From NCBI RefSeq assembly GCF_015143595.1, contig NZ_WYEU01000001.1, positions 1 to 64,000 of the forward strand: a stretch of 64,000 bases of DNA. Reading direction: 5' to 3'. This DNA comes from Sneathiella sp. P13V-1. Lineage in GTDB: Bacteria; Pseudomonadota; Alphaproteobacteria; Sneathiellales; Sneathiellaceae. Made by a program: the position numbers and the translations under genes. The notes beneath the pieces are model-generated. The model did not search any database and was not told the origin of the DNA. It was given only the letters and a program-made list of their open reading frames with translations. This document shows positions 31,874-46,967 of this stretch, one piece after another (position 1 is the first letter of the stretch; each line of letters begins with the position of its first letter).

Positions 31874-32575
31874 ATGTTGGCAATTTTATCTAATGATTTG
31901 AGTGCAATGAACGGACAACTAAAAAACAAAGTGCTCCCTCTATTGATTGGATTGGCAATTGTATATTTCTTGTCGCCAATGTTCTCGCGCTTTGGAAGAC
32001 TTGAAGCAGAGCCAAAATATACTCTTTCAGGCACCCTGGTGAGGAAAGGCGTTAATTCCTTTGTCGTCGAAGGACAAAGAATAGCAATACTGGGGGTCAA
32101 ATTTCCTTACGCTGATCAATCCTGCACCGAAGACGAAGAAGGACTGCAGGATCTCAATAAGCAGCCCGTTTTTTCATGCTTACAACGCGCCAACCAATTG
32201 TCCTCAGACTATCTCTCTGCCACTTCAGCGAGGTGCGAAATATTGTTTGAAGTCGGGCAGGAAAAGGTAGGTATTGCGAATTGTTTCTCAGGCGACACCA
32301 ATATTGGGTCAGAACTCATCTTAAAGGGTTACGCATACGCTGAACGCAGTTTCACAGGAGGAATGTATCTTCCCGAGGAATACTGGTCCCGGATTAAATT
32401 AAGGGGCCTCTGGCAAAATTACACAATCCACCCCGAAGATTTTCGGGAGCGAAAAGAAGAATTAATCAAACGCATCAAAGAGCATCGGGGAAAGTTTCCA
32501 GACCCTCTTGAAACAATGAAGATGATTGAAGAGTTGCAAAGGCAAGGTGTACTGGAAAAACCCTCCAAACAGTGA
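31874..32575 (+). CDS. Membrane-anchored thermonuclease-fold (SNase-like) protein, probably inactive
   Basis: A 233-residue protein with an N-terminal membrane helix (LPLLIGLAIVYFLSPMFSRF). An OB-fold domain like staphylococcal nuclease follows: QRIAILGVKFPYADQSC, then CEILFEVGQEKVGIANCFSG and NIGSELILKGYAYAERSF. The usual DTPE motif with its catalytic Arg/Asp/Glu set is not visible, so nuclease activity is doubtful. A charged C-terminal helix (ERKEELIKRIKEHRG) ends it. The start could be 31910 (MNGQLKNKVLP), as neither ATG has a strong ribosome site. It stops 1 bp before the left island repeat, just outside the island. The fold call is moderate. Confidence 0.6.
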   Translation: MLAILSNDLSAMNGQLKNKVLPLLIGLAIVYFLSPMFSRFGRLEAEPKYTLSGTLVRKGVNSFVVEGQRIAILGVKFPYADQSCTEDEEGLQDLNKQPVFSCLQRANQLSSDYLSATSARCEILFEVGQEKVGIANCFSGDTNIGSELILKGYAYAERSFTGGMYLPEEYWSRIKLRGLWQNYTIHPEDFRERKEELIKRIKEHRGKFPDPLETMKMIEELQRQGVLEKPSKQ

Positions 32576-32576
32576 A

Positions 32577-32626
32577 AATGGTGCCGCCGGAGAGAATTGA
32601 ACTCTCGACCTCTCCCTTACCAAGGG
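32577..32626. repeat. attL: left direct repeat, 3' fragment of tRNA-Thr
   Basis: A 50-bp copy of 46891-46940, identical except at 32608 (A versus G at 46922). It corresponds to the minus-strand tRNA-Thr 3' part: anticodon arm 3' side, T arm, acceptor 3' strand and CCA. The 5' half of the tRNA is missing, so it is no functional tRNA. It marks the left end of the integrated island. Confidence 0.93.
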
Positions 32627-32739: not shown

Positions 32740-33594
32740 CTAGTAAAACCAACTTTGGTCAGCGTTTTTCCACCCAAGTTCTTCTCCCATCCAATCAAGC
32801 GCCTTGTCATGAGGGACGCGCCTTTTTTTGTATTCCCCTTTTGGAAACAGGCGACCTCTCAATGTTGCATAGCTTGAATGTTCTAAATCCTTTGAGACTA
32901 CAATTCTTAAACTGTTCCCCTCAGAAAGAAAGCCAACAAGTCCTTTATCGAGTAATTTATGAAGATCTGAACGCAAGCATATTCCATTTGCTGGGTCGTA
33001 GGTTACGTTTTCATTATCCATCCCTTCAGGAAAGACATGAGCCGCCTCAATCGCTGCCAACACAGATTCCTCTGTAACAGCACATTTATTGCCCCAAATT
33101 TTCAGTTGTGTTTTTCTAAATCGGTCTTGCTTAGGGCGTGATTTCTGCGATCGAAGTTTGCGTTGAAGCTCTTTTCCCGAAGGACCTTTCCAATTATCAA
33201 AAGCGCTTTCCCAAGTATTTTCACTTACTCCAAGCAATTCCAATAACTTAGAACCAACCTCATACTCCACAGCTTCTTCATCAAAGCCCTTACTATCCGG
33301 CTTCATGAGAAACTTCTTACTCACTAGAGATGCCACATACGATTTGTCAAATTTCCATTTGTTTCCACTTCTGTCAAAAAACACCACTGGAATTGTATTT
33401 TTTTGAGAGCTGTAGTTTTCCAACACATACTTCATTCCATCAAGGAACGCTTTACCTCGAGGTTTATTAGGATTTAACTTGCCATCTTTAGACAACTCAC
33501 CATAGCTAACAACCGTTGATTTGCAGAGGTTTATAATGGGAGTTCCACCGTTTTCGCCATAGAGCTTTAGTAAGTAATCTGTATTTATCTGCAT
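32740..33594 (-). CDS. HNH endonuclease, restriction-type
   Basis: A 284-residue protein. The C-terminal HNH domain is clear: NKCAVTEES, then AAIEAAHVFPEGMDNENVTY with the catalytic His in the EAAHV position (near residue 190), NGICLRSDLHKLLDKGLVGF and a final conserved segment. The N-terminal ~150 residues have no recognised fold and may bind DNA. This architecture is common in solitary restriction-like HNH nucleases found in defence islands. Start 33594 is chosen because AAGGAG lies at good distance before it. It is the first gene at the left island end and reads toward the att site. The target is unknown. Confidence 0.8.
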   Translation of the reverse strand: MQINTDYLLKLYGENGGTPIINLCKSTVVSYGELSKDGKLNPNKPRGKAFLDGMKYVLENYSSQKNTIPVVFFDRSGNKWKFDKSYVASLVSKKFLMKPDSKGFDEEAVEYEVGSKLLELLGVSENTWESAFDNWKGPSGKELQRKLRSQKSRPKQDRFRKTQLKIWGNKCAVTEESVLAAIEAAHVFPEGMDNENVTYDPANGICLRSDLHKLLDKGLVGFLSEGNSLRIVVSKDLEHSSYATLRGRLFPKGEYKKRRVPHDKALDWMGEELGWKNADQSWFY

Positions 33595-33706
33595 AAATAC
33601 TCCTTCCAAGATTTATCGATGGCAACCACCAAGAAGCACACCAAATTCATCAATTAATTGACGATATACTCTCGCCATTATACAAAAGTATTGGGGGTAT
33701 TAAAGC

Positions 33707-36700
33707 GTGCTAGCAAGATCACAGAATTTTGCCATTTTGGAAAGCCATGCACCTCAGCTTACTGAGCTGGGAACCCTTGCTGAGCGCTACTATCATGAGA
33801 GTCCAAACACAGCGACAATCAAGTTAAGGCAGTATGGTGAGCTAATGGCTCAAATGACAGCCGCAAAGATGTGCGTTTACATTCAGGACAATGACACACA
33901 AGTAGCGCGTCTAAGACGACTCGCGGATGATGCCAAACTCCCAAAGGCAGTGTTGGACCTTTTTCATTATTTGCGAAAGCACGGCAATGCAGCCAACCAT
34001 GAACTCAAAGATGATCACGGGATAGCCCTTACAAGTCTTAAAGTCGCCCATAGGCTTGCAAACTGGTACCACGCCACTTTTGGAGCAGAGCACAGCTTTC
34101 AAGCGTCCGTGTTTATACCTCCATTGAGTAGAAAAGATCTCACAGACACGCTTCAAAATGAAATCGAAGAGCTACAGCAAAAACTAAACGCAACACTCTC
34201 AGCAGCTCAAAAAGCGGAATTGCAAGTAGCTCAAGAACGTGAATTGCGAGCTACTGCGGAAGAAGAAAAAGAGAAACTCGCGGCTCTAAACGAAGAAACC
34301 AATCAGTATGCCACTTCAATGGCGGAACAACTATTAGAGTTACAGAAAGAGGCTGAAGAACAAAGCAGCCCAGAACGCCAAGAACTCATAGAACATGCAA
34401 CTGAAGCTGCAAAAGGTATCGATCTTGATGAAGCTGACACAAGGCGCTTTATTGATGAACAGCTTCGCAATGCCGGGTGGGAGGCTGACACAGATAAATT
34501 AACATTTAAGGCTGGTATACGCCCTCAAAAAGGAAGAAACCTTGCCATCGCAGAATGGCCTACTGCAAGCGGTCCTGCTGACTATGTGCTCTTCATAGGA
34601 TTAACGGCAGTCGCAGTAGTCGAAGCAAAACGCCAGCGCAAGGATGTATATTCCGCAGTAGATCAGGCAAAACGGTACTCCCGAGATTACAACCCGAAAG
34701 AAAGCGAAGTATTGGTTGAGGGAGGTCCTTGGATAGATGCTGACAACCACTCTCACCAAATACCGTTTGTTTTTGCAACAAATGGAAGGCCGTATCTGAA
34801 GCAACTCGAAACCAAATCTGGCATATGGTTCTGTGATCTACGTCTCTCGTCCAATCAACGCCGCGCCCTTGAAGGTTGGTACAGCCCTCGCGGTCTTCAA
34901 GAGCTTTTGATCATGGACTCAAAAGCCGCAGACGAAAAGTTGAAGACCGAAAGCTTTGACTACGGAATAACCCTTAGAGATTATCAACAGACAGCCATTC
35001 GAAGTACTGAAGCCGCCATTGAGCAGGGTAGGCGCGAGATGCTTCTTGCTATGGCAACCGGAACAGGCAAAACCGCAACTTGTATTTCGCTTGTCTACAG
35101 ATTGCTTAAAACTAATCGGTTTAAACGCATCTTGTTCCTTGTAGATCGATCCGCATTAGGCAATCAAACCCACGATGCCTTCAACAACATACAGATGGAG
35201 CAATTGCAAAAGTTCTCAGCCATCTATGATGTTAAGGGTCTTGATGACAAAGAAATTGATGACTCTACGCGCGTACATATCGCAACTGTGCAGAGCATGG
35301 TGAAGCGCCTGATGTATTCAGAAGATGACACAACGGTTCCAACAGTTGACCAGTATGACGCCATTGTTATTGATGAGTGTCACCGTGGCTACCTACTTGA
35401 TAAAGAACTCAGTGAGCATGAGTTATCTTTTCGTGATGAAGCAGACTACATTTCGAAATACAGAAGGGTTCTTGAGCATTTTGATGCCATCAAGATTGGC
35501 CTGACGGCCACACCAGCCTTACACACAACTGAGATTTTTGGTGAACCAATCTACACCTACTCCTACAGAGAGGCTGTTATTGATGGTTGGCTGATAGATC
35601 ACGAGCCACCTGTTCAAATCAAAACCAAATTGTCCGAAAGTGGCATTAAATGGAAAGATGGCGAAAGTGTCGAGTTCCTCAACACCAAGACAGGGGAAAT
35701 TGATCTATTCCATCTTAAGGATGAGCTTGGTTTTGAAATTCAGAGTTTCAACAAACAAGTAATCACCGAACCTTTCAACAAAACAGTCTGTGAAGCACTG
35801 GTTGGCCTGACAGGAGATATTGCCAACCCGATTGATCCAATGAGTGATGAAAAGACACTCATCTTCTGTGCGACAGATAGCCACGCTGATATCGTTGTGA
35901 AATCTATGAAAGATGCCTTCACGGCTGCGGGTTATTCCGTTGATGACGACATGGTCATGAAAATCACAGGTGCGAGCGACAAGCCACAGCAACTAATTCG
36001 TCGTTTTAGAAACGAAACTCTTCCTAAAGTCGCGGTAACAGTTGACCTTCTCACCACAGGTATCGACATTCCGAGCATTTGCAATCTTGTCTTTATCCGC
36101 CGTGTAAATAGTCGAATTCTCTATGACCAGATGCTTGGACGTGCCACAAGGCGATGTGATGAAATTGGTAAAGAGTTTTTCAAGGTATTCGATGCCGTTG
36201 GTCTGTATGACACACTACAGAACATCACAAACATGAAGCCAGTTTCTGTGAATTCCAGCATATCTTTCCAACAGCTTGTCAAAGAAATCATCAATGTCGA
36301 TGATGAGGAAACCCAGCAAGGTCTTAAAGACCAATTCATAGCAAAATTGCATCGAACTCAACGGCGATACAGTCAAGAAACGAACGATAGCATCGACAAT
36401 GCTGCTGGTGTATCGGTGAGTGAAATTGCTCCCCTTTTGCAACAACAATCCATTGCACAAACCACTGAATGGTTCAAAACTCGACCAACTCTAGCTTCAG
36501 TCCTTGACTATACGGGAGATGGTCCGCCCCCAAGGGTCGCTATATCAGAACACGAAGATGAACTTCTCTCTACTGACACAGGGTATGGTGAGGGAGAAAA
36601 ACCAGAAGATTTTCTAGATGGTTTTATTCAGTTTATTAAGGCAAACGAAAATAAAATCGAAGCCCTCAAGATTGTAACTCAGCGCCCCCGCGAACTAACA

Positions 36701-37114
36701 CGCCAGCATCTGAAAGATTTAAAACGACTACTCGAAGAGCACCACTTCAGAGAAGCAGACCTACGTGCTGCATGGAGAGCTTCGACTAACGAAGATATTG
36801 CAGCTTCTATTATTGGCTATGTACGACAAGCCTCCCTTGGAGATCCACTTATACCCTACTCTGAGCGTGTGGCAGCCGCAACTAAGGAGATCACTTTGAA
36901 AGGCGACTGGACGCCCTTACAGCGCAAGTGGTTGGATCGTATCGCCCTTCAATTGCAGAATGAAAAGAATGTCCCTGTCATTGACCCTGAAACTCTTAAC
37001 CAAGGCTCATTTGCGGCGCAGGGTGGTTTTAGGCGGATTGACAAGGTGTTTGACGGAAGATTGGAGAACATCCTTGAGGACATCAATGAGGCAGTTTGGA
37101 GGAACACAGCATGA
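33707..37114 (+). CDS. hsdR: Type I restriction enzyme, HsdR subunit (EcoEI-like)
   Basis: A 1135-residue restriction and translocation subunit. Residues ~1-110 resemble DUF4145. A long coiled coil spans ~125-235. The nuclease domain has ADYVLF, then AVVEAKRQRKD (~295-315), the PD-(D/E)xK core. The SF2 helicase has Walker A ATGTGKTAT (~450), VIDECHRGY (~555), a TATPAL motif and VTVDLLTTGIDIPS with LGRATRRCDEIG (~785-825). The C-terminal part binds the modification complex. It cuts unmodified DNA at a distance after ATP-driven translocation, together with HsdM and HsdS. It begins with GTG after GGGGGTATTAAAGC. The stop overlaps the next start (ATGA). Confidence 0.95.
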   Translation: MLARSQNFAILESHAPQLTELGTLAERYYHESPNTATIKLRQYGELMAQMTAAKMCVYIQDNDTQVARLRRLADDAKLPKAVLDLFHYLRKHGNAANHELKDDHGIALTSLKVAHRLANWYHATFGAEHSFQASVFIPPLSRKDLTDTLQNEIEELQQKLNATLSAAQKAELQVAQERELRATAEEEKEKLAALNEETNQYATSMAEQLLELQKEAEEQSSPERQELIEHATEAAKGIDLDEADTRRFIDEQLRNAGWEADTDKLTFKAGIRPQKGRNLAIAEWPTASGPADYVLFIGLTAVAVVEAKRQRKDVYSAVDQAKRYSRDYNPKESEVLVEGGPWIDADNHSHQIPFVFATNGRPYLKQLETKSGIWFCDLRLSSNQRRALEGWYSPRGLQELLIMDSKAADEKLKTESFDYGITLRDYQQTAIRSTEAAIEQGRREMLLAMATGTGKTATCISLVYRLLKTNRFKRILFLVDRSALGNQTHDAFNNIQMEQLQKFSAIYDVKGLDDKEIDDSTRVHIATVQSMVKRLMYSEDDTTVPTVDQYDAIVIDECHRGYLLDKELSEHELSFRDEADYISKYRRVLEHFDAIKIGLTATPALHTTEIFGEPIYTYSYREAVIDGWLIDHEPPVQIKTKLSESGIKWKDGESVEFLNTKTGEIDLFHLKDELGFEIQSFNKQVITEPFNKTVCEALVGLTGDIANPIDPMSDEKTLIFCATDSHADIVVKSMKDAFTAAGYSVDDDMVMKITGASDKPQQLIRRFRNETLPKVAVTVDLLTTGIDIPSICNLVFIRRVNSRILYDQMLGRATRRCDEIGKEFFKVFDAVGLYDTLQNITNMKPVSVNSSISFQQLVKEIINVDDEETQQGLKDQFIAKLHRTQRRYSQETNDSIDNAAGVSVSEIAPLLQQQSIAQTTEWFKTRPTLASVLDYTGDGPPPRVAISEHEDELLSTDTGYGEGEKPEDFLDGFIQFIKANENKIEALKIVTQRPRELTRQHLKDLKRLLEEHHFREADLRAAWRASTNEDIAASIIGYVRQASLGDPLIPYSERVAAATKEITLKGDWTPLQRKWLDRIALQLQNEKNVPVIDPETLNQGSFAAQGGFRRIDKVFDGRLENILEDINEAVWRNTA

Positions 37115-37320
37115 GTAAGACTGAAGGTCTTGTCGAGATTTATGAAAGACGTTGTCTCGAAATAGGGGAACAAATCGATCAAATGTCCAACGACTTGAAG
37201 GCACTTGAGAAATACAAGATAAGCGCAGATGGCGCAAAGAAGTTGGAGGACGCTATTCTCAATTTGGCTAAACATTCAGATGAACTACGAGAGGCCATCA
37301 AAGTCCATAGAGAGCACTGA
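37111..37320 (+). CDS. Small coiled-coil protein in the type I restriction operon
   Basis: A 69-residue, highly charged, helical protein with heptad-like pattern (GLVEIYERRCLEIGEQIDQM then DLKALEKYKISADGAKKLED). No family recognised. The ATG at 37111 is chosen because GGAGGA stands 7 nt before it, and it overlaps the hsdR stop. The next gene starts on the last base of its stop codon. Tight coupling between HsdR and the PD-(D/E)xK protein suggests a structural or control role in the restriction complex. Confidence 0.65.
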   Translation: MSKTEGLVEIYERRCLEIGEQIDQMSNDLKALEKYKISADGAKKLEDAILNLAKHSDELREAIKVHREH

Positions 37321-38321
37321 TGACACAGGTATCATTCTTTCAGCGCTATTCTCAGCGTGAAAATCACGTTACTAACAACACTTTGCTATTGCTTAAGTAT
37401 TTCTATGAGTATGACACTAGAAAACTCCAAAGCACTTTAACGGAACTTTTAGAAAACGAACTACCGATAGGTCTATCATTTGGCCAACAAGTAAGACAGG
37501 AAGGTAGCGTTCCTGATGGTTTAATTATGCAGAGAGGCTTTCAAATTTTAATTGAGGCAAAACTCGATGCTAATCTCACTTCCGAGCAAGTGGTCGCACA
37601 TGTCAAAGGTGCTAAAAAGCAAAATGATGTAGACACTGTTATGCTCGGATTAACTAGCTCACCACCTTCCAAAGGCACCATTGAAAAAATTGAAGAACAG
37701 TTGAAGCATACTGCCAATACCATTTTCAGGGCTATCACATATACAGATCTGATTGAGGCTCTGAGAAACGCATGTGATCCGCACGAAAATCGTTTACTAG
37801 CAATTGTCGATGACTATTCTTCTTTTCTCGCGTTAGAGGGCTTATTATTTAATCCCGACGATAGGCTTTTTGCTGTCCCTTGCGGTCAATCACATAAGGA
37901 AAACAAGAAGTATGGAGTCTATTATGAACCGACTACACGCCCTCCCCAATTAGACTGCGGATTTCTTGGTATATACCACCACAAGAGTATTAGGGCTTTA
38001 GGGAAAATACAAGCAGTCGTCGAAGCAGAAGAAACGTCAGATGGACTGGTACTTAGCATTCTCAAGAGTACAAACATCGATCTCGAAAAATTAAAAACAA
38101 AAGTACAGCAAGTAATCAACGAAACTTCATATTATGACTTAGCGAGCACCCCACATAGGTACTACTTCACTGAAAGCGTTGAAAAGACTAATTTTGCAAA
38201 AATCTCCAAAGGTGGTATGCGAGGTAAAAGGACATTTTCTCTGTCAGAATTTTCTGGTGGTAAAATTCCGAATGATGCAAGAGAACTTTCTCAGATTTTG
38301 AGAGAAAAGAGTTTCGAGTAA
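37320..38321 (+). CDS. Putative PD-(D/E)xK nuclease-like protein in the type I locus
   Basis: A 333-residue protein of uncertain function. Residues 61-81 contain GSVPDGLI and ILIEAKL, that is PD66 followed by E79-A-K81, the core of the PD-(D/E)xK nuclease fold, preceded by QQVRQEGS. An N-terminal helical part (FFQRYSQRENHVTNNTLLLL) and a C-terminal ~200 residues with no recognised domain follow. It lies between hsdR and hsdM, coupled to the small coiled-coil gene and 5 bp before hsdM. It could be a second nuclease, a phage-triggered effector or an accessory specificity factor. No membrane segments. Confidence 0.65.
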   Translation: MTQVSFFQRYSQRENHVTNNTLLLLKYFYEYDTRKLQSTLTELLENELPIGLSFGQQVRQEGSVPDGLIMQRGFQILIEAKLDANLTSEQVVAHVKGAKKQNDVDTVMLGLTSSPPSKGTIEKIEEQLKHTANTIFRAITYTDLIEALRNACDPHENRLLAIVDDYSSFLALEGLLFNPDDRLFAVPCGQSHKENKKYGVYYEPTTRPPQLDCGFLGIYHHKSIRALGKIQAVVEAEETSDGLVLSILKSTNIDLEKLKTKVQQVINETSYYDLASTPHRYYFTESVEKTNFAKISKGGMRGKRTFSLSEFSGGKIPNDARELSQILREKSFE

Positions 38322-38326
38322 AGTAA

Positions 38327-39775
38327 ATGACCATCACACATGACATCGTCCAGAAGCTCTGGAACCTTTGTAATCACCTGAAGCATGATGGGGTGACGTA
38401 TCATCAGTATGTGACTGAGCTGACCTATCTGCTGTTCCTCAAGATGATGCGAGAGGTGGAAAAGGAAGATCAGTTGCCAGAGGGATATCGTTGGGGAGAT
38501 CTGACATCCAAGAACGGTGTTGAACTTCTGGATTTTTACCGTTTGATGCTCATCCATCTCGGATCTCACGGTTCATCCCGTGTGCAGGAGATCTATGCTG
38601 GCGCGGGCACTATTATCAAAAAGCCGAAGACGCTCACTGACCTCGTCACTGAACTTGATAAGCTGGACTGGTATTCTGCCCGTCAGGAAGGTTTAGGCGA
38701 TCTCTATGAGGGCTTGCTTGAAAAGAATGCGGGAGAGACTAAGTCTGGTGCAGGTCAGTATTTCACGCCACGCCCCCTAATCAACTGCATGGTTCAATTA
38801 ATGAAACCTCAAGCAGGTGAGGTTATTCAAGACCCTGCTGCAGGTACAGGTGGCTTCCTCATTGCAGCAGACAACTATATCAAAGAAAAAACCGACCAGC
38901 TGTTCACCCTTTCAGAAGCAGAAGGTAACTTCCAGCGCAAACAAGCCTTCTGCGGATTAGAACATGTACAGGACACCCACCGTCTAAGTTTGATGAACAT
39001 GATGCTGCATGGGATTGAAAGCGGTGTGGCTTATGGTGATACATTGTCGCCTGATGGCGCAAACCTTCCCAAATCAGATGTTATGCTGACCAATCCGCCT
39101 TTTGGCTCCTCTGGTGCTGGTGGCCTTCCAACACGGGACGATTTCACGTTTGAAACGGCGAATAAGCAGCTTTGTTTTCTACAGCATATTTATCGCGGTC
39201 TGAAGGCTGGTGGACGAGCAGCAGTTGTCTTGCCTGACAACGTTCTGTTTGAAGATAACAAAGGCAAAGAAATCCGTCAGGATTTGATGGACAAATGCAA
39301 GCTCCACACCATCCTTAGATTGCCTACAGGAATCTTCTATGCTCAAGGCGTGAAGACTAATGTCCTGTTCTTCACACGGGGAAAAACGGACAAGGGCAAT
39401 ACTGAAAATATCTGGGTGTACGATATGCGTACGAACATGCCCAAGTTCGGCAAACGCACCCCACTGACGGAAGCTCATTTCACACAATTTGTGAAGGTGT
39501 TTGGTGAGGATGTACACGGCACTAGCCCACGCAAAGAGGCTGACGATACTGAAGAACGATGGAAGTGTTTCTCTCGCGAAGATATCGAGAAACGTGGCGA
39601 CAATCTTGATATCTCTTGGCTAAAAGATGAAAGCGCAAGCAGTGTTGAGGATCTTGACGAACCAGACGTTATTGCAGCCCGTATAATGAACCACTTGCGC
39701 ACTGCATTAGGTGAGATGGAAGCGCTTAGTGAGATGCTTGATGAAGATCAAAATAAAGTCGAGGCGGCAGAGTAA
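38327..39775 (+). CDS. hsdM: Type I modification methylase, HsdM subunit
   Basis: A 482-residue N6-adenine methyltransferase. The helical N-terminal domain begins DIVQKLWNLCNHLKHDGVTY. The SAM motif I is QDPAAGTGGFLIAA (near residue 168) and catalytic motif IV is NPPFG (near residue 257). The preceding GAGQYFTPRPLI block is typical of HsdM. With HsdS it methylates the recognition site, protecting host DNA from HsdR. It is followed after 3 bp by the GIY-YIG gene, not directly by hsdS. Confidence 0.95.
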   Translation: MTITHDIVQKLWNLCNHLKHDGVTYHQYVTELTYLLFLKMMREVEKEDQLPEGYRWGDLTSKNGVELLDFYRLMLIHLGSHGSSRVQEIYAGAGTIIKKPKTLTDLVTELDKLDWYSARQEGLGDLYEGLLEKNAGETKSGAGQYFTPRPLINCMVQLMKPQAGEVIQDPAAGTGGFLIAADNYIKEKTDQLFTLSEAEGNFQRKQAFCGLEHVQDTHRLSLMNMMLHGIESGVAYGDTLSPDGANLPKSDVMLTNPPFGSSGAGGLPTRDDFTFETANKQLCFLQHIYRGLKAGGRAAVVLPDNVLFEDNKGKEIRQDLMDKCKLHTILRLPTGIFYAQGVKTNVLFFTRGKTDKGNTENIWVYDMRTNMPKFGKRTPLTEAHFTQFVKVFGEDVHGTSPRKEADDTEERWKCFSREDIEKRGDNLDISWLKDESASSVEDLDEPDVIAARIMNHLRTALGEMEALSEMLDEDQNKVEAAE

Positions 39776-39778
39776 CCA

Positions 39779-40678
39779 ATGGCATCAAGTGAAGATCAGA
39801 ATATAGGCCGCACCATTCAACTATATCTTGTTGACGGGACACCTGATGGCCTCTCCATTGCGTCTATCTACGGCTGGACAGGTTCGATCATAGTCGCTCG
39901 TAACAGCACTCTCCCACAGCTCCTAAGGCGTCCAGAGGCCAACCGTACAGGCGTTTACCTGCTTTATGGCCCTGACCCAGAGAACGAACTGAAAGAACGC
40001 GTTTATGTGGGAGAAGCTGATGATATTAAACAGCGTTTGCCAAACTCTGTCCGTGATCGTGGCTTCTGGGAACTCGCCGCTATTATCACCACTAGTGATG
40101 AAAGCCTGACCAAAGCACATGTACGTTATTTGGAAGCCGAACTTATGCGTCTTGTAAGTGAAGCTGACAGAGTAACACTCGACAACTCTCAAACTCCAGG
40201 CACTGAACGTCGTTACTTGCCCGAAGCCGACAAAGCCAACATGACTGGTTTTTTGAAAAATATTGAAACCATCCTGCCCGTCGTCGGTTTTGGCATGTTG
40301 AAACCCAAGGCAAAAGCGGCAACTTCACCAGCAAAAACACAACCCGTTTTTGAGATCGATCATAGAAGCGGCATTAAAGCTACCATGATAGAGGTCAGTG
40401 GAGAATATCTTGTACAAGCCAGTTCTCTTGCAGCAAAAGATGCCGGCAATAAGCAGAACTCATATGACCATCTTCGCCAAAAGCTGATTGATGGTGGAGT
40501 ATTAGCAGATGCGGGAGGTTTTTTCCGGTTTAGTGAAGCCACCTCATTCAAAAGCCCCTCTGCCGCCGCAGCTGTTATCCTTGACCGCAATGCTAATGGT
40601 CGAACCGAATGGAAGCTAAAAGGGACAAAGCGCACCTACGATGAATGGCAATCTGAGCAAGCGGAGACAGTGGAATGA
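39779..40678 (+). CDS. GIY-YIG nuclease-domain protein with C-terminal DUF4357
   Basis: A 299-residue protein. The GIY-YIG core appears as TGVYLLYG (residues 57-64) and VYVGEADDIKQRL (75-87), with a possible catalytic Glu in RYLEAELMRL (~120). The C-terminal ~90 residues (VQASSLAAKDAG, then the SYDHLRQKLIDGGVL block, and TYDEWQ at the end) match DUF4357. This pairing recurs next to type I methylase genes. The role is unknown: it may be a regulator or accessory nuclease of the system. It overlaps hsdS by 4 bp, so its translation is coupled to the specificity subunit. Confidence 0.8.
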   Translation: MASSEDQNIGRTIQLYLVDGTPDGLSIASIYGWTGSIIVARNSTLPQLLRRPEANRTGVYLLYGPDPENELKERVYVGEADDIKQRLPNSVRDRGFWELAAIITTSDESLTKAHVRYLEAELMRLVSEADRVTLDNSQTPGTERRYLPEADKANMTGFLKNIETILPVVGFGMLKPKAKAATSPAKTQPVFEIDHRSGIKATMIEVSGEYLVQASSLAAKDAGNKQNSYDHLRQKLIDGGVLADAGGFFRFSEATSFKSPSAAAAVILDRNANGRTEWKLKGTKRTYDEWQSEQAETVE

Positions 40679-42186
40679 GCATACAAATACCCACTGGCTG
40701 GAGCATTGAGGAGTTTGGTGAGTTAAGTACTCAAAAAACATCCAACATAGATCCGTCTAAATTTCCCGAAGAAGATTTTGAGCTTTGGAGTGTCCCTAAT
40801 TTTCCTTCAGGAAAGCCAGAGTTTGTTAAAGGTTTTGAAATCAAATCAAACAAGCAAGTAGTAAAATCAGGAGATGTATTAGTTTGCAAAATTAACCCGA
40901 GGATCAACAGAGTTTGGGTAGTGCAACCACATACTAAAAATAGGCAACTAGCATCAACGGAATGGATTGTAATCAGGAACCCCTCTATCCAACCAGATTT
41001 CTTAAAGTACTTCTTCACAAGCCCAAAATTCAGAACTGGTATATGCTCCGATGTTTCTGGTGTAGGGGGTTCATTAACAAGAGCACGACCGAAAACCATA
41101 GCAAAACTGTTGTCTCCGATAGCACCGCTTAACGAGCAGAGGCGGATTGTGGAGAAGGTTGATGCGTTGATGGAGAAGTCTGGGGCGGCGAAGGAGGCGT
41201 TGGATGCCATTCCAGCTCTGCTTGATCAATACCGTCAATCCGTCCTCGCCGCCGCCTTCCGTGGTGACCTAACCAAAGACTGGCGCGAACAAAACCCAAA
41301 CATTGAACCTGCCTCTGTGCTACTGGACCGCATCCGCACCGAACGCCGCCAGTGCTGGGAAGAATCCGAACTCGTCAAAATACGGGCCAAAGGCAAAGAA
41401 CCAAAGAATGATAAGTGGAAAGAGAAGTATAAGGAACCTCTTACGTTACTTGACGGACATTTCTTGAAGGTGCCAAAAAACTGGGAGGTGACTACCCCCG
41501 ACCTCATTTGTGAGCAGATTGTGGATTGCTCACATGCTACTGCAAAATACACAGATACTGGTATTCCAATCGTCAGAACAACGGAATTTCGCCTAGGTAA
41601 ACTAGATCTTCAAAAAGTAAAGCGCGTCTCAAGAGAGACCTTTGAGAAAAGAGTATTAAGACTTAAACCGAGAGCAAATGACATACTTTACAGCCGAGAA
41701 GGTGGAATATTTGGTATCGCCTGTATAGTGCCAAACGTTGAGCTTTGCATGGGACAACGTATGATGCTTTTCAGAGCCAACACAAACGCAATTCTTCCAA
41801 GTTTTCTTTTGTGGATGTTAAACTCACCCGCCTTTTTCAACCAAGCAGCTAGCAAAGTTACGGGTTCGGCATCCCCTCATGTCAATGTCGGTGATATAAA
41901 GCGATTTGCGATTGCATTGCCCCCGATTGAAGAACAAGAAAAAATCGTCAATTTGATCACTGCATCTCTCGAGAAGATTGAAGAAGTTAGCCAACACCTA
42001 GAATTGTTGAATAAGTCAAAGGCCGAACTCAATCAATCAATCCTGGCCAAAGCCTTTCGTGGGGAACTTGTCCCTCAAGATCCAACTGACGAACCAGCAG
42101 CAGTTCTTCTGAAGCGCATACAGGTGGAACGCGAAGTAACCGCTAAGAGCAAGCCCAAGAGAACACGGCAGAAAAAGACCGCCTAA
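40675..42186 (+). CDS. hsdS: Type I restriction specificity subunit, HsdS
   Basis: A 503-residue protein with two target-recognition domains (residues ~1-150 and ~250-410), each followed by a conserved helical spacer: APLNEQRRIVEKVDALMEKS near 150 and LPPIEEQEKIVNLITASLEK near 420. The repeats QSVLAAAFRGDLTKDW and QSILAKAFRGELVPQD mark the two halves. The two domains read the two halves of a split recognition site, which cannot be deduced here. It ends the restriction operon. Confidence 0.93.
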   Translation: MSIQIPTGWSIEEFGELSTQKTSNIDPSKFPEEDFELWSVPNFPSGKPEFVKGFEIKSNKQVVKSGDVLVCKINPRINRVWVVQPHTKNRQLASTEWIVIRNPSIQPDFLKYFFTSPKFRTGICSDVSGVGGSLTRARPKTIAKLLSPIAPLNEQRRIVEKVDALMEKSGAAKEALDAIPALLDQYRQSVLAAAFRGDLTKDWREQNPNIEPASVLLDRIRTERRQCWEESELVKIRAKGKEPKNDKWKEKYKEPLTLLDGHFLKVPKNWEVTTPDLICEQIVDCSHATAKYTDTGIPIVRTTEFRLGKLDLQKVKRVSRETFEKRVLRLKPRANDILYSREGGIFGIACIVPNVELCMGQRMMLFRANTNAILPSFLLWMLNSPAFFNQAASKVTGSASPHVNVGDIKRFAIALPPIEEQEKIVNLITASLEKIEEVSQHLELLNKSKAELNQSILAKAFRGELVPQDPTDEPAAVLLKRIQVEREVTAKSKPKRTRQKKTA

Positions 42187-42461: not shown

Positions 42462-43025
42462 ATGTTGATTGGCTATGCGCGTACCAGCACCTTGGAACAA
42501 GAAGCAGGACTCGCTGCTCAAATCGCTGAGCTAGAAGCATTGGGTGTGGAGCGTATATATAAAGAGCAGGTTAGTGCTACTTCCAAACGACCTGAACTTC
42601 AATCTGCACTCGACTATCTGCGCGATGGCGACACGCTTGTTGTCACAAAATTGGATCGCCTTGCTCGAAGCGTTAAGCATCTGGGAGAAATCGTTGAAGT
42701 CATTGAATCTCAGGAAGCTCACCTCCGTATTCTTAACTTAGGGATCGACACAAGTGACCCAACAGGAAAACTTGTCCTTAATCTACTTGGCTCCGTTGCA
42801 CAGTTTGAAAGAGAGATGATGCTAGAGCGACAGCGCGAAGGCATCGCGAAAGCACAAGCTGAAGGTAAATATAAAGGTCGCCCTGCGATGATTGATAAAG
42901 AGCAAATCATCCAGCGCCATTCAACAGGGGAAAGCCCAACAGCTATTGCAAGAGATATGGGAATAAGTCGCACAGCAATATACAGGGCTTTAGGGCGCGT
43001 CAAAGACAAGCGAACTGACACATAA
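42462..43025 (+). CDS. Serine resolvase/invertase
   Basis: A 187-residue small serine recombinase of standard length. The catalytic serine is S9 in IGYARTSTLEQ; further active-site residues lie in VTKLDRLARSV (near residue 65). The E-helix region is LGSVAQFEREMMLERQREGI (near 110-129), and the C-terminal helix-turn-helix is GESPTAIARDMGISRTAIYR (~155-174). It recombines paired sites such as the res-like array just upstream, which suggests multimer resolution of a circular form or cointegrate resolution. It reads toward the polymerase-like gene, 441 bp away. Confidence 0.92.
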   Translation: MLIGYARTSTLEQEAGLAAQIAELEALGVERIYKEQVSATSKRPELQSALDYLRDGDTLVVTKLDRLARSVKHLGEIVEVIESQEAHLRILNLGIDTSDPTGKLVLNLLGSVAQFEREMMLERQREGIAKAQAEGKYKGRPAMIDKEQIIQRHSTGESPTAIARDMGISRTAIYRALGRVKDKRTDT

Positions 43026-43466
43026 TTAATCACATATTTTATATGTATAATTAGTTGTTCCACTAGATAAGTACGATAAACTATACAGTTCGCCGTGCTT
43101 TTCTTTTGGTATCTGTTTTCTCGACCAAGCGACTTTCAATAAGACAAGAATTTGCGTTCACGATGGGATGAGATTTAGAAACACCCACTACGCTGGTGGT
43201 TCACATCGTTCTCAGATTTGGCGGAAACCCGTTCAATTCCGCAAGCCTCTCAACCCCGCTGGAAACCTCAACAAAACTGCCATTTCAATAAAAGTTGCAG
43301 CAGTAGCTTTATCTCGCAAAAAATTTTCAAATTTCTTTTTTTCGAATTTTTCGAAGTTCGATCGCCGAAAAGCGAGATGGCATTCTGGGATCAATACACG
43401 ATCCCTCACTTCTCATTAATGCAACAAAACAGAAAAGGCACTCTTTCAAAAGAGTGAGGTCTAGTC
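43026..43466. other. Intergenic region with hairpin over the downstream ribosome site
   Basis: A 441-bp A/T-rich gap in the island. Around 43335-43378 TTCGA-type repeats recur (TTCGAATTTTTCGAAGTTCG). A perfect hairpin, CACTCTT-TCAA-AAGAGTG (43439-43456), stands next to the AGG ribosome site of the next gene and could control its translation. A short open frame at 43218-43457 has no recognisable protein and overlaps the hairpin, so I do not call it a gene. Confidence 0.4.
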
Positions 43467-44753
43467 ATGAACGAAATAAATCCAAACATTTTAACTACTG
43501 TCACTCGCGAAGATGTTAAGCGCCTAAAAGAAGCGCGACACGTCAACTTTCATCGTATTCCTGTAAGTGAGACGGCCCACGAGTTTTCCATTTTCATGTG
43601 GGAAGCAATCCAATCTCGTCTTTATGAGAAAAATGAGAAAGCCCTCCAATGGACACTAAAAAGAGAGGAAAAGTTCTGGAAAACCATTGATTCAATTATT
43701 TGCGACCTAGCGTATCAACATTTACTTGGTGAAGGAGAGTTTCTGTACATGTCACTACGATCCTCTGCCTACAAAGCGTCACGATATCAACTACAAAACG
43801 TGAGCTACACGGCCGTCAAAGATGCCTTTGACATCTTGCTTTCAAACGATCTGCAAATGATTGAGGCAAAATTTGGCTACCAAGGAGGTAAGGGATACAG
43901 CGGACGTTCAACGCGCATTCGACCAAGCGATCGACTGAGCAAAATCATCGACTTCTTTGGCCTTACGCTTTCTGACTTTGGTGAAGCAGATAACAAAGAA
44001 ACAATTGTCCTACGTGATGAAAAAGAGAACCCCACAAGTCTAGCGAAACTGACTGAATACGAAGATACTCCCACAACAATCCGCATGAGACAGGAGATGA
44101 CACTTATCAACGACTTCATTGGTAGTTTGGATGTCACTTGTCCTCACCAACATGACCCCAACGCAACCGACCTAGTTCGAATTTTCAACAACTCTGATTT
44201 CAACCTAGGAGGAAGGCTTTACCGTGGATGGTGGCAGACAATGCCATATAGGGAACGAGTAAATATCGAGATCAACGGCATGGAGACAGTGGAGCTAGAT
44301 TTCTGTGAGCTGCATCCGACAATGCTATACGCAGAGGTAAAAGATGCTCAACTGCCCAAAAGTGCCTATGAGATCGATGATATGAGCAGAAAGGAGGCGA
44401 AGGTACTTTTCAACGCAATGCTGAACGCTAAACGGGAGCTATCCAACTGGCCAAAGGATTTAGAAGGAGAATCCATGAAGATGAGCCTTGAACAAGCTCA
44501 AACGACAATTAAGTCCCACCATTCCGGTATTGGCTCCTTCTTCCATTCAGGTAAAGGCTTGGAGTTACAACGTAACGATAGCGACTTGATTGTTGCAACC
44601 ATCCTAGACCTGATGCGCAGAGGTATCCCCGCTCTTCCAATACATGACTCCCTCATTGTACCAGAGCTTTATGCTGACGAAGTAGAAGAGGTGATGAAAA
44701 AGTGGTTCTTACGCCTATCTGGGGCTGAAGTGGAAGTAAAACTGGCTGCTTAG
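43467..44753 (+). CDS. Divergent polymerase-palm-like protein (possible primase/polymerase)
   Basis: A 428-residue protein not assignable to a named family by eye. Its C-terminal half shows an ordered set of polymerase-palm-like motifs. GGRLYRGWWQTMP (248-260) leads to ELDFCELHPTMLY (276-288), a motif A look-alike centred on D278 (family B motif A is DFxSLYPS). KVLFNAMLN (312-320) resembles family B KxxxNSxYG. IPALPIHDSLIV (387-398) with H393-D394-S395 resembles motif C of family A polymerases and T7-type RNA polymerases. The N-terminal ~240 residues are helical and unrecognised. Setting between a resolvase/res site and an RNase H homologue in an integrative element supports a nucleic-acid synthesis role. 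Polymerase activity is inference; it could be a degenerate palm. Confidence 0.5.
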   Translation: MNEINPNILTTVTREDVKRLKEARHVNFHRIPVSETAHEFSIFMWEAIQSRLYEKNEKALQWTLKREEKFWKTIDSIICDLAYQHLLGEGEFLYMSLRSSAYKASRYQLQNVSYTAVKDAFDILLSNDLQMIEAKFGYQGGKGYSGRSTRIRPSDRLSKIIDFFGLTLSDFGEADNKETIVLRDEKENPTSLAKLTEYEDTPTTIRMRQEMTLINDFIGSLDVTCPHQHDPNATDLVRIFNNSDFNLGGRLYRGWWQTMPYRERVNIEINGMETVELDFCELHPTMLYAEVKDAQLPKSAYEIDDMSRKEAKVLFNAMLNAKRELSNWPKDLEGESMKMSLEQAQTTIKSHHSGIGSFFHSGKGLELQRNDSDLIVATILDLMRRGIPALPIHDSLIVPELYADEVEEVMKKWFLRLSGAEVEVKLAA

Positions 44754-44818
44754 GCTAACGCCTGAGGATGATTTTATCTAGTGACTACCTATCTTGATTA
44801 CCTATAGGAGCTAATAGA

Positions 44819-44845
44819 TCTCCTCCTCCCCTCCCCTTCCCTCCC
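44819..44845 (-). other. Homopyrimidine tract; G-quadruplex motif on the minus strand
   Basis: A 27-nt run of only C and T on the plus strand. Its complement reads GGGAGGGAAGGGGAGGGG followed by AGGAGGAGA, four G-runs with loops of 1, 2 and 1 nt, a strong G-quadruplex motif and a good R-loop or triplex former. It lies in the gap between the polymerase-like gene and the RNase HI-like gene, in otherwise A/T-rich surroundings. Confidence 0.7.
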
Positions 44846-44911
44846 ATGTCCGGAAAAAAAATAAATTCACGCCTTCTGGACCTCAAAACAACACTAACTC
44901 ACGACGATCAA

Positions 44912-44966
44912 GCAGATGAGCATTCGGTTCGCATGTAATCCATGCGGAGTGCATTAGCTCGTCTGC
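44912..44966. repeat. Nested palindrome upstream of the RNase HI-like gene
   Basis: Outer arms GCAGATGAGC (44912-44921) and GCTCGTCTGC (44957-44966) pair with one wobble. Inside is a perfect hairpin, CGCATG-TAATC-CATGCG (44930-44946). It could extrude as a cruciform or fold in RNA as a leader. It ends 2 nt before the AAAGGA ribosome site of the next gene. Confidence 0.6.
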
Positions 44967-44979
44967 AGAAAGGAATATT

Positions 44980-45477
44980 ATGACTATAACTATTCACATA
45001 AACGGCTCATGCCTTGGGAATCCAGGGCCAGGAGGATGGGCTGCCATTCTTCAAAAGGAAGCAAAGAAAAAAAGCATTCAGGGTTTATCAAACTATACCA
45101 CGAACAACAGAATGGAGTTGGCAGCAGCAATCAAAGCTCTTGAGCACATAAAGCAACATAATGAAGTTCTTATACACACAAACAATAGATATGTAGTTGA
45201 TGGTATTACGTTATGGATAAAAAACTGGAAGCAAAACGGCTGGACAACAGCGAATAAGAAACCTGTGGAGAATGCTGATCTCTGGCAACGACTTCTACAA
45301 GCGACAGAGAAGCACACAGTTGAATGGAAATGGGCTAGAGCCGCTAGAGCAAGTTACAGCGGTGACGAGGTTGATCGTCTTGCCACAACACAAGCAGAAA
45401 AAGCCGAGTTGTACAGGTTATCCACCCCATTCGACATTGCTGATCGTAGTTTTCACGAATTCTTCCCAAGTAAGTAA
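44980..45477 (+). CDS. Catalytically inactive RNase HI homologue
   Basis: A 165-residue protein very similar to proteobacterial RNase HI: SCLGNPGPGG (10-19), TTNNRMELAAA (40-50), WIKNWKQNGW (79-88) and NADLWQRL (98-105), the last two being the basic handle that grips RNA-DNA hybrids. Against E. coli RNase HI the catalytic Asp10 is Asn8, Asp70 is Asn68 and the His124 loop GHAGH is AARAS (His to Ala122). Glu48 (E46) and Asp134 (D132) remain. Two metal ligands are thus Asn, the very change used to make hybrid-binding, non-cutting RNase H. The last ~25 residues differ from RNase HI. It likely binds RNA-DNA hybrids without cutting. AAAGGAATATT precedes the ATG, and the excisionase-like gene follows 12 bp after. 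Confidence 0.85.
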   Translation: MTITIHINGSCLGNPGPGGWAAILQKEAKKKSIQGLSNYTTNNRMELAAAIKALEHIKQHNEVLIHTNNRYVVDGITLWIKNWKQNGWTTANKKPVENADLWQRLLQATEKHTVEWKWARAARASYSGDEVDRLATTQAEKAELYRLSTPFDIADRSFHEFFPSK

Positions 45478-45489
45478 ACAAGTGCTGAA

Positions 45490-45771
45490 ATGAATGACAT
45501 TATGACGCGAGTAGAAGCTGCCGAATATCTCAGGATTTCCATTCGACAGTTAGATCGCCTGTCAATTCCTCGGCATTATGTGGGCCGCTTACCAAGATTT
45601 CTAAAAGAAGATCTTAAAGAGTTCATTCACAAAAGTAGGACTTTTCCCTCGAGGTTCACATTGAATGGGCAAGCAATTCAACCTGATCACTCACTTGAAC
45701 ACTCCAAAATCAAACACAGCAATATTAAGCTATCAACGAAGGAGAAACTAAACGCATTACTCTCTCACTGA
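45490..45771 (+). CDS. Excisionase/AlpA-like helix-turn-helix protein
   Basis: A 93-residue protein whose N-terminal half is a MerR-like/HTH_17 winged helix: TRVEAAEYLRISIRQLDRL then YVGRLPRFLKEDLKEFIHK. This is the build of AlpA- and Xis-type recombination directionality factors. The rest is a basic tail of unknown fold. It lies 12 bp after the RNase HI-like gene, so both are probably co-expressed, and its 3' end overlaps the convergent integrase gene by 7 bp. The start may alternatively be at 45502. Confidence 0.78.
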   Translation: MNDIMTRVEAAEYLRISIRQLDRLSIPRHYVGRLPRFLKEDLKEFIHKSRTFPSRFTLNGQAIQPDHSLEHSKIKHSNIKLSTKEKLNALLSH

Positions 45772-46796
45772 TCCAATACATTAACGGCGTCATCTAAAGC
45801 ACTCGGAGCTAGATGGGCGTATTTGAGTGTCATCTGAATACTTGAATGCCCCATCAGCTCCTGAACTTGCTTAAGACCAACATCACGCATTACTAGACGG
45901 CTGGCAAATGTGTGCCTCAAATCATGGAATACAAAATTCTCAATGCCAGCATCTGAAACAGCTTTTTCCCAAGCCCTTTTCATGTCCCCAATTGGACCGC
46001 CATGAAGTGCGCGAAACACATGGCTATCGTCCCCCTCTTTATGGGCGGCAAGGCGTACTATTAATTCCACAATGGTTTTGCTTGCTGGTATTCGATAGGG
46101 CTTCCTTGATTTGGGTTTGGGAATACGAACTGCAGTTGGCTTTTCATTACTCCATATGACATCTCTCCATTTGAAATCCAAGATGTCTTGTTTTCTGGCT
46201 CCGGTATGCAGTGCAAAGGTAACAACATCCTTTAACCAATCTGGCAACACAGACATCAACGACTTCTCTTCATCATCAGACAAATACCTGACCCTTGTAT
46301 CGCTATCCTGAAGTTTAGGAAACTGTGGCAAGGTATAACTTGGGCATATTTCTTTCGCTCTGTTTAATACCGCTTTAAGGTCATTCATTTCCCTCTTCAC
46401 CGTACTAATAGCAACCCCTTTCTTCTCACCTTCTCCCCCCAACCTCTTATTCACGTATTGCGCCAACATGGGAGCGTTAATTGCGTCTATTGGTGTGTCT
46501 GCTCCAATGTGAGAAATGAACCTCTCATGGTTTGCCTGATCCCTAGCCACAGCTCCTTTACTTCTTTGAGAGGATGTTTGACGGAGTTTCAAATAGTATT
46601 CAACCGCGTCCCAATATGTTGGTATTTGCACACTGCCGAACTTCTTGTGCCGCTCACGCATTTCAGCTTTGAATTCTTCTTCAACTCGTTGTGCCTTGCG
46701 CTTGCTAGTTTCACCTGTGGAACGCTTTACGCGCTGGCCCAGCAATTCAAAGTCCATCACATAGGTCTTTGCACCTTTTGGAAGGTATACAGTCAT
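45765..46796 (-). CDS. Tyrosine recombinase (phage-type integrase)
   Basis: A 343-residue integrase. An arm-binding N-terminal part (KTYVMDFELLGQRVKRSTGE) is followed by a SAM-like core-binding domain (residues ~60-150) and the catalytic domain. There the Arg lies in LHTGARKQDILDFKW (near residue 195), HDLRHTFASRL holds the His-x-x-Arg pair, then ELMGHSSIQMTLKYAHL with the second His and the nucleophilic Tyr (near residue 326). It should catalyse site-specific insertion into the tRNA-Thr 3' end. The start is 95 bp from the attR repeat, reading away from the tRNA. Confidence 0.95.
   Translation of the reverse strand: MTVYLPKGAKTYVMDFELLGQRVKRSTGETSKRKAQRVEEEFKAEMRERHKKFGSVQIPTYWDAVEYYLKLRQTSSQRSKGAVARDQANHERFISHIGADTPIDAINAPMLAQYVNKRLGGEGEKKGVAISTVKREMNDLKAVLNRAKEICPSYTLPQFPKLQDSDTRVRYLSDDEEKSLMSVLPDWLKDVVTFALHTGARKQDILDFKWRDVIWSNEKPTAVRIPKPKSRKPYRIPASKTIVELIVRLAAHKEGDDSHVFRALHGGPIGDMKRAWEKAVSDAGIENFVFHDLRHTFASRLVMRDVGLKQVQELMGHSSIQMTLKYAHLAPSALDDAVNVLDQ

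Positions 46797-46890: not shown

Positions 46891-46967
<77 letters not shown>

Follow-up and report, generated by a model that had tools for sequence, protein, structure and literature searches.

In a 64,000-nucleotide stretch of Sneathiella sp. P13V-1 DNA (contig NZ_WYEU01000001.1, positions 1 to 64,000; hereafter the window), a 14-kb integrative element occupies a tRNA-Thr gene. The element encodes a 428-residue polymerase and, downstream on the same strand, a homologue of RNase HI that lacks the catalytic set of this enzyme. The original prediction described the two as a palm-like protein and a dead RNase HI in a tRNA-bounded island. It proposed that they form an island replication origin or copy-control device around a G-rich tract lying between them. 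A predicted palm fold and conservation of the gene pair, the absence of either of which it had named as decisive against it, were both found.

The polymerase and its RNase HI-like neighbour

All three polymerase-palm-like motifs listed in the original prediction, D278-FCELHP, K312-VLFN and H393-D394-S395, were recovered in the 428-residue protein. In a 70-sequence family alignment R238, G248, G249, R250, W256, R264, D278, Y301, K312, G364, H393, D394 and M410 are invariant, and R308 is conserved in at least 90% of the sequences. The D278, K312 and H393-D394 motifs exceed chance because they are invariant across this alignment. The conserved residues also stand in the same order as in family A polymerases, namely hairpin arginine, motif A aspartate, R-x3-K and H-D (PMC2579912).

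An AlphaFold2 model built from the 70 sequences (pLDDT 92.2, pTM 0.88) predicts the palm, fingers and thumb of a family A core. The best structure match in the PDB, at E 6.2e-6, was the Taq Klenow fragment, and fragments of Bacillus Pol I matched as well. Whole-chain TM-scores against the PDB were low (0.32 by query) because not all domains match; re-alignment with 9qsc gave a Z of 12.0 and a root-mean-square deviation (rmsd) of 3.5 over 218 aligned residues, and all 50 PDB rows listed after re-alignment were family A DNA polymerases or T7-like RNA polymerases. The core spans about residues 175-428 and is preceded by a winged-helix-like part at about residues 33-170. When modelled separately, the N-terminal 170 residues reached a pLDDT of 86.5 and resembled winged helices only weakly: the best Foldseek E was 0.12, and Z did not exceed 6.6, with an rmsd of 4.1 over 98 residues. 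A small inverted repeat at 43439-43456, just 5' of the polymerase gene, is terminator-like on the minus strand.

Pfam, NCBIfam and PDB sequence searches with the polymerase returned nothing significant. Its match in a sequence library was PHROG_4756, a family of unknown function (E 2.6e-45), and its model also matched phage protein models with E-values to 5.1e-24. Unlike the window element, the 17 matched phage records, from Vibrio and Aeromonas, are phages of 112-146 kb, with identities of 23-32%. A polymerase of Yoonia (Loktanella) vestfoldensis SKA53 (L152) is 33% identical to that of the window (E 7e-47). The gene after it contains DUF5906 (E 8.6e-21) and matches the solved 'DNA primase' 7ola (E 2.4e-7), which we take to be a pathogenicity-island primase-helicase. 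We presume that L152 is the TV-Pol gene published for L. vestfoldensis, the named example of a D5-like helicase adjoining a TV-Pol (PMC2579912). The Zamilon virophage replication protein was matched by structure alone (E 1.6e-4).

TV-Pols were defined as the family A cores of mobile elements and predicted to be primase-polymerases (Iyer, Abhiman and Aravind 2008; PMC2579912). They comprise 400-600 residues, occur among others in alphaproteobacterial mobile elements and are surrounded by resolvase, lambda-type integrase and restriction genes, all three of which are present in the island. In addition to its family A core, the window polymerase shares with them the two metal-binding aspartates (D278 and D394, invariant in the 70 rows) and the RxxxK of the fingers (R308, at least 90%; K312, invariant). 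The model further places strands 237-241 and 244-252 as a beta-hairpin around the invariant R250, which we infer to be the published hairpin arginine. We conclude that the polymerase belongs to the TV-Pols or is close kin. It differs from the described elements in three respects: an RNase HI homologue lies close by, as it does at the other loci counted below; no D5 helicase was recognised in the island; and the N-terminus is winged-helix-like, whereas an all-helical domain was predicted for a subset of TV-Pols (PMC2579912). The helicase check covered nine island open reading frames (ORFs) in Pfam and HsdR and HsdS in PADLOC only, and left out the small ORF at 37096-37320.

CcPol, a related A-family polymerase, is reported to make primers together with a partner resembling a single-strand-binding protein (SSB) (PMC7581432; PMC10061031), and Bebel 2020 states that to its authors' knowledge no other TV-Pol member had been characterised (PMC7581432). 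The CcPol-MP and PolA-SSB primases resemble the window pair in that a family A polymerase sits on an integrating island alongside recombinases and restriction cargo and has a small partner encoded next to it. In contrast, their partner is an OB-fold single-strand binder, accompanied by a helicase, in Bacillota, and that of the window is an RNase H homologue. No OB-fold SSB and no D5 or DUF927 helicase adjoins the window polymerase, whose neighbours are the resolvase and the RNase HI homologue. By family membership and the published CcPol-MP biochemistry, the TV-Pol of the window would act as a primase-polymerase.

The downstream gene product belongs to the RNase HI family by profile (PF00075, E 3.3e-36; NCBIfam ribonuclease HI equivalog, 174.8 bits against a cut-off of 160). 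Its catalytic positions read N8, E46, N68, A122 and D132 instead of D, E, D, H and D. In E. coli numbering this amounts to D10N, D70N and a replaced H124 loop, with E48 and D134 kept; the alignment of this loop is possibly one or two residues off, and the loop is without any histidine. The replacement of catalytic residues announced in the original prediction is thus present, and judged from its sequence the homologue is not expected to function as an RNase HI nuclease. The second and third of its PDB sequence matches were chains 1rdc and 1rda, presumably the D70N and D10N mutants.

As a yardstick we used a non-random set of 30 RNase HI sequences, consisting of the 29 best-scoring other alphaproteobacterial loci and the host's own copy. 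The window homologue departs at seven of 37 near-invariant positions (D8, D68, S69, V119, H122, G124 and N128), all of them inside a nine-position active-site zone, and keeps 28 of 28 near-invariant positions outside it. The yardstick sequences depart at 0 to 4 of the 37 positions each. The frame is open and full length, with a ribosome-binding-site-like AAAGGAA 5' of the start. A second RNase HI match, 48% identical, lies elsewhere in the host genome (C1:388350).

Recurrence of the pair among TV-Pol loci

A same-strand RNase HI homologue was found near the polymerase in nine of 181 other distinct loci (E at most 1.6e-22), within 0.5 kb in eight of them. At least 500 bases are available on each side in 162 of the 181 loci, including all nine linked ones; partial loci are counted among the 181, and 12 of the 183 polymerase matches do not span motifs A to C. 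The linked RNase HI is intact in six loci (L037, L018, L165, L259, L269 and L270). It looks frame-broken, which may be real or a sequencing fault, in L101 and, at a distance of 1.4 kb, in L048, and in L002, from a genome of the window's genus (G009), a 3' remnant lies about 0.5 kb away. All six intact copies keep D, E, D, H and D. Each deviates at 1 to 5 of the 37 near-invariant positions, with V119I in L018 (L010 is the same place) as the sole case inside the active-site zone. The pairing is thus real and recurrent, mostly with an RNase HI that looks active, and the dead form appears local. The dead state is therefore not part of a conserved device. Nor is the make-up entirely new: the polymerase and its resolvase, integrase and restriction setting match TV-Pol elements (PMC2579912), and no report of a TV-Pol with an RNase HI was found in the titles or abstract openings of the literature searched.

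With the window counted, the linked polymerases represent about seven lineages with at most 40% mutual identity. On a tree of 89 of 182 polymerases the linkage label changes seven times, at least six changes being forced by well-supported branches, and on an earlier tree, which predates the discovery of four of the links, it changes five times with at least three forced; both trees come from rapid searches that gave long-branch warnings, and a single gain with two losses could account for three of the changes. In the best RNase HI tree (four linked rows against 30) the linked copies are split over more than one clade, and a single origin was not rejected (approximately unbiased test, p 0.148). 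Two RNase HI matches at E of at most 1e-20 occur in four of 385 alphaproteobacterial genomes, and in three of these four, that of the window included, the second adjoins a TV-Pol. Each of the four linked hosts that were re-searched carries another RNase HI.

A diverged RNase H-like ORF also lies 5' of the polymerase in five loci of another order (L247, L254, L257, L258 and L260). Three of these ORFs were found at E 5.8e-6, 5e-4 and 0.002, the best of them staying below the Pfam cut-off (E 0.19), and two more were added by iteration over 269 upstream ORFs, which also pulled in a true RNase HI. Profile comparison of the group gave a probability of 95% and a P of 2.4e-8, and a P of 1.3e-4 with only three rows. 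Judged by eye, the catalytic residues seem lost. We regard these ORFs as RNase H-like partners as a lead only.

Relatives of the polymerase are present in nine of 142 genomes of the host's relatives (window genome counted), in 29 of 385 genomes of the class Alphaproteobacteria and, within the order to which G408 (the Phyllobacterium genome with L165) belongs, in 36 of 397 genomes. Viral contigs contributed 47 polymerase loci from 91 pattern-matched stretches, and in GTDB genome contigs relatives were found in 410 of 443 such stretches, 80 of the 410 being among the matches listed. Scanning viral contigs with one protein sequence alone gave no relative. Across 154 loci, integrases (69) and resolvases (31) are the commonest neighbours. 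Of 41 genome-contig loci with 5 kb on both sides, 31 have an integrase-cluster gene and 17 a resolvase-cluster gene inside that distance.

Several loci drew attention in their own right. Two loci in the single genome of Rhodobacteraceae bacterium HTCC2083 (L095 and L096) have equal match statistics over the polymerase gene, and further partial matches bring the total to eight, which suggests that a TV-Pol element spread recently. L009 and L013 (G128:C14, 8329-8934 and 17278-17883) are TV-Pol matches of identical score about 9 kb apart, and a further, partial match sits where the contig ends. A cysteine-containing ORF without a Pfam match lies over the start of the polymerase gene at L101:7120-7782, and another kind of cysteine-containing ORF is found directly 3' of the polymerase in four loci (for example L110:9358-10059).

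The integrative element and its host

The element measures 14.3 kb between its direct repeats (Table 1), and the tRNA-bounded island of the original prediction is borne out by these repeats at the tRNA-Thr gene. An Rfam scan gave nothing above the gathering score except tRNA. The window genome measures 3.7 Mb, and its relatives include many alphaproteobacteria. In the same-genus genome G009 a second copy of the tRNA-Thr repeat lies about 5.6 kb away, as expected for an integration hot spot. When the left flank was compared with 21 same-genus tRNA-Thr loci, it aligned only over the attachment repeat and at most 13 bases more, and no empty site came to light. An open frame at 31874-32575, which has no Pfam match, stops just 5' of the left repeat. 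It was not seen beside tRNA-Thr in these 21 loci, and the left flank itself may therefore be variable. The small helix-turn-helix (HTH) protein encoded next to the integrase is possibly an excisionase. The DUF4357 gene within the restriction operon matches the PADLOC candidate system PDC-S14 (E 6.9e-106).

Table 1. Coordinates of the element's features in the window
Feature	Position	Strand	Remark
Left attachment-site repeat	32577..32626	none	50 bp, 1 mismatch against right copy
HNH endonuclease-like gene	32740..33609	-	island cargo; PF13391 E 1.1e-10
Type I restriction operon, whole	33707..42186	+	six ORFs
HsdR	33707-37114	+	type I restriction operon
Small ORF	37096-37320	+	within type I restriction operon
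Uncharacterised ORF	37320-38321	+	within type I restriction operon
HsdM	38327-39775	+	type I restriction operon
DUF4357 protein	39779-40678	+	within type I restriction operon
HsdS	40675-42186	+	type I restriction operon
Serine resolvase	42462..43025	+	PF00239 E 9.4e-42; PF02796 E 1.9e-7
TV-Pol-like polymerase, 428 aa	43467..44753	+	PHROG_4756, family alignment, predicted structure
Key polymerase residues	within 43467..44753		R250, E276, D278, R308, K312, H393, D394
G-quadruplex (G4) motif, judged incidental	44828..44845	-	single in 64 kb
Strong nested hairpin	44912..44966 (about)	+	-30.1 kcal/mol; just 5' of RNase HI ribosome-binding site
RNase HI homologue without catalytic set, 165 aa	44980..45477	+	PF00075 and NCBIfam, full-length frame
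Small HTH protein	45490..45771	+	PF12728 E 0.01, below cut-off
Tyrosine integrase	45765..46796	-	adjoins tRNA; PF00589 E 1.5e-26
Right attachment-site repeat	46891..46940	none	overlaps tRNA-Thr over all but two bases
tRNA-Thr(ggt)	46893..46967	-	tRNA gene, target of integration

Weighing the explanations

The explanation we put forward, which in our judgement has an even chance of being correct, is that the RNase H partner of a TV-Pol element turned into a hybrid-binding pseudoenzyme. The TV-Pol would prime and copy the excised or incoming element, as its family and the CcPol-MP biochemistry suggest. TV-Pol elements repeatedly recruit an extra RNase HI, which would most simply serve to handle the RNA:DNA hybrids made by priming. 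In the sequence of the window copy the catalytic set is lost and the other near-invariant positions of the family are retained; the protein would most likely still bind hybrids and shield them from host RNase HI or helicases; alternatively, it might hold the polymerase on its primer. Coverage of hybrids by the dead enzyme is reasonable because the same Asp-to-Asn changes leave E. coli RNase HI binding without cutting: the D10N and D70N proteins are reported to bind hybrids without cutting them, to raise hybrid foci and to block Rho in vivo (PMC12203952). Both substitutions occur in the window homologue. The published proteins are laboratory single mutants, whereas the homologue belongs to a natural mobile element and, in its sequence, carries both changes and has lost the H124 loop as well. 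A looser parallel is offered by retroviral reverse transcriptase, in which a degenerate RNase H 'tether' domain accompanies a palm polymerase (PMC9040795). The window likewise appears to join a palm polymerase to a degenerate RNase H partner; the retroviral domains are fused and the polymerase is RNA-templated and of another family, and the likeness is an analogy only.

Several observations count against this explanation. The Microcystis phage Ma-LMM01, a reported TV-Pol holder, gave no match by profile; in a profile-profile comparison, motif A was the only part to align with 11 host Pol I sequences (P 0.061, not significant); and the window polymerase has Ser299 where at least 90% of the family carry Asp, in a column that may correspond to the conserved fingers aspartate of TV-Pols. 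Among 21 viral-contig loci with 5 kb on both sides, only three have an integrase nearby and three a resolvase. The chance of all seven RNase HI departures falling into the nine-position zone is 3.5e-6, for a zone that was drawn after the data had been seen; that of at least three of the five strict catalytic positions being among the seven is 0.037, and the seven form three local clusters. One dead full-length copy is known, that of the window. Finally, the ten linked copies, with that of the window counted, include two frame-broken ones and one 3' remnant, which indicates that decay is common.

Decay is accordingly the main rival. It holds that a once-active accessory RNase HI in an ageing island, dispensable given the host copy, lost its active site first and is now a dead protein without a role, and we rate it as somewhat less than evenly probable. 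The broken and truncated linked copies fit decay, the remnant coming from the window's own genus, and so does the presence of another RNase HI in every host checked. The branch of the window copy in the RNase HI tree is long (1.34 against a median of 0.34), although those of three intact linked copies are long too (1.12, 1.36 and 4.47). Against decay stand the open, full-length frame with its ribosome-binding-site-like sequence and the complete retention of near-invariant positions outside the active-site zone, even though each of the six intact linked copies deviates at 1 to 5 of the 37.

A broader form of the pseudoenzyme explanation takes the RNase H-fold partner to be a second TV-Pol component that was made a dead hybrid-binding subunit in more than one lineage, by point changes to a downstream gene in the window and as a diverged upstream gene in the five loci of the other order. 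The partner would then protect the RNA primers laid down by the primase-polymerase against RNase HI and Rho of the host, and bacteria would offer a counterpart to the dead RNase H tether found in retroviral reverse transcriptases. We consider this form unlikely, if worth keeping in mind.

That the pair is an anti-phage or anti-plasmid defence module, carried as cargo of a defence island, we consider improbable. The pair does adjoin the type I restriction operon, and Rice 2023 raises a defence possibility for PolA-SSB primases (PMC10061031). PADLOC gave no match for the polymerase or the RNase HI homologue, restriction genes were already reported around TV-Pol and PolA-SSB elements, and the commonest neighbours of the relatives are the integrases and resolvases counted above.

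The device of the original prediction, in which the dead RNase HI would shield a G-rich R-loop at 44754-44979 for the palm protein to extend, could draw on the G4 motif and the stable hairpin between the two genes and on the hybrid shielding documented for D10N and D70N in E. coli (PMC12203952). Its nested palindrome is real (z -5.2; none of 200 shuffles equally stable). The G-quadruplex-prone tract exists as a motif, but at chance level (a single occurrence in 64 kb, where 60 shuffles averaged 0.77; not significant), and it is found within 400 bases 3' of the polymerase in just six of 178 relatives, one of the nine with a linked RNase HI. Moreover, the G-rich strand is the template strand of both genes, and the transcript is C-rich there. 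Sharing of 8-mers downstream of the relatives' polymerases was weak (12 of 151 loci; shuffled sets reached nine at most), short direct repeats and shared 8-mers gave no convincing origin signal, and promoter-like sites were fewer than expected (two against 7.5 in shuffles). With no sign of it found in these comparisons, an origin or copy-control device has little support, and we regard the R-loop reading as very improbable.

If a hybrid-binding pseudoenzyme does accompany the TV-Pol of the window, a mobile element would be using hybrid protection in place of hybrid removal, and a natural RNase HI that carries both of the inactivating substitutions introduced in the laboratory would provide a hybrid binder without further engineering. 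For the family as a whole, the recurrent RNase HI partner suggests that TV-Pols make or meet RNA:DNA hybrids.

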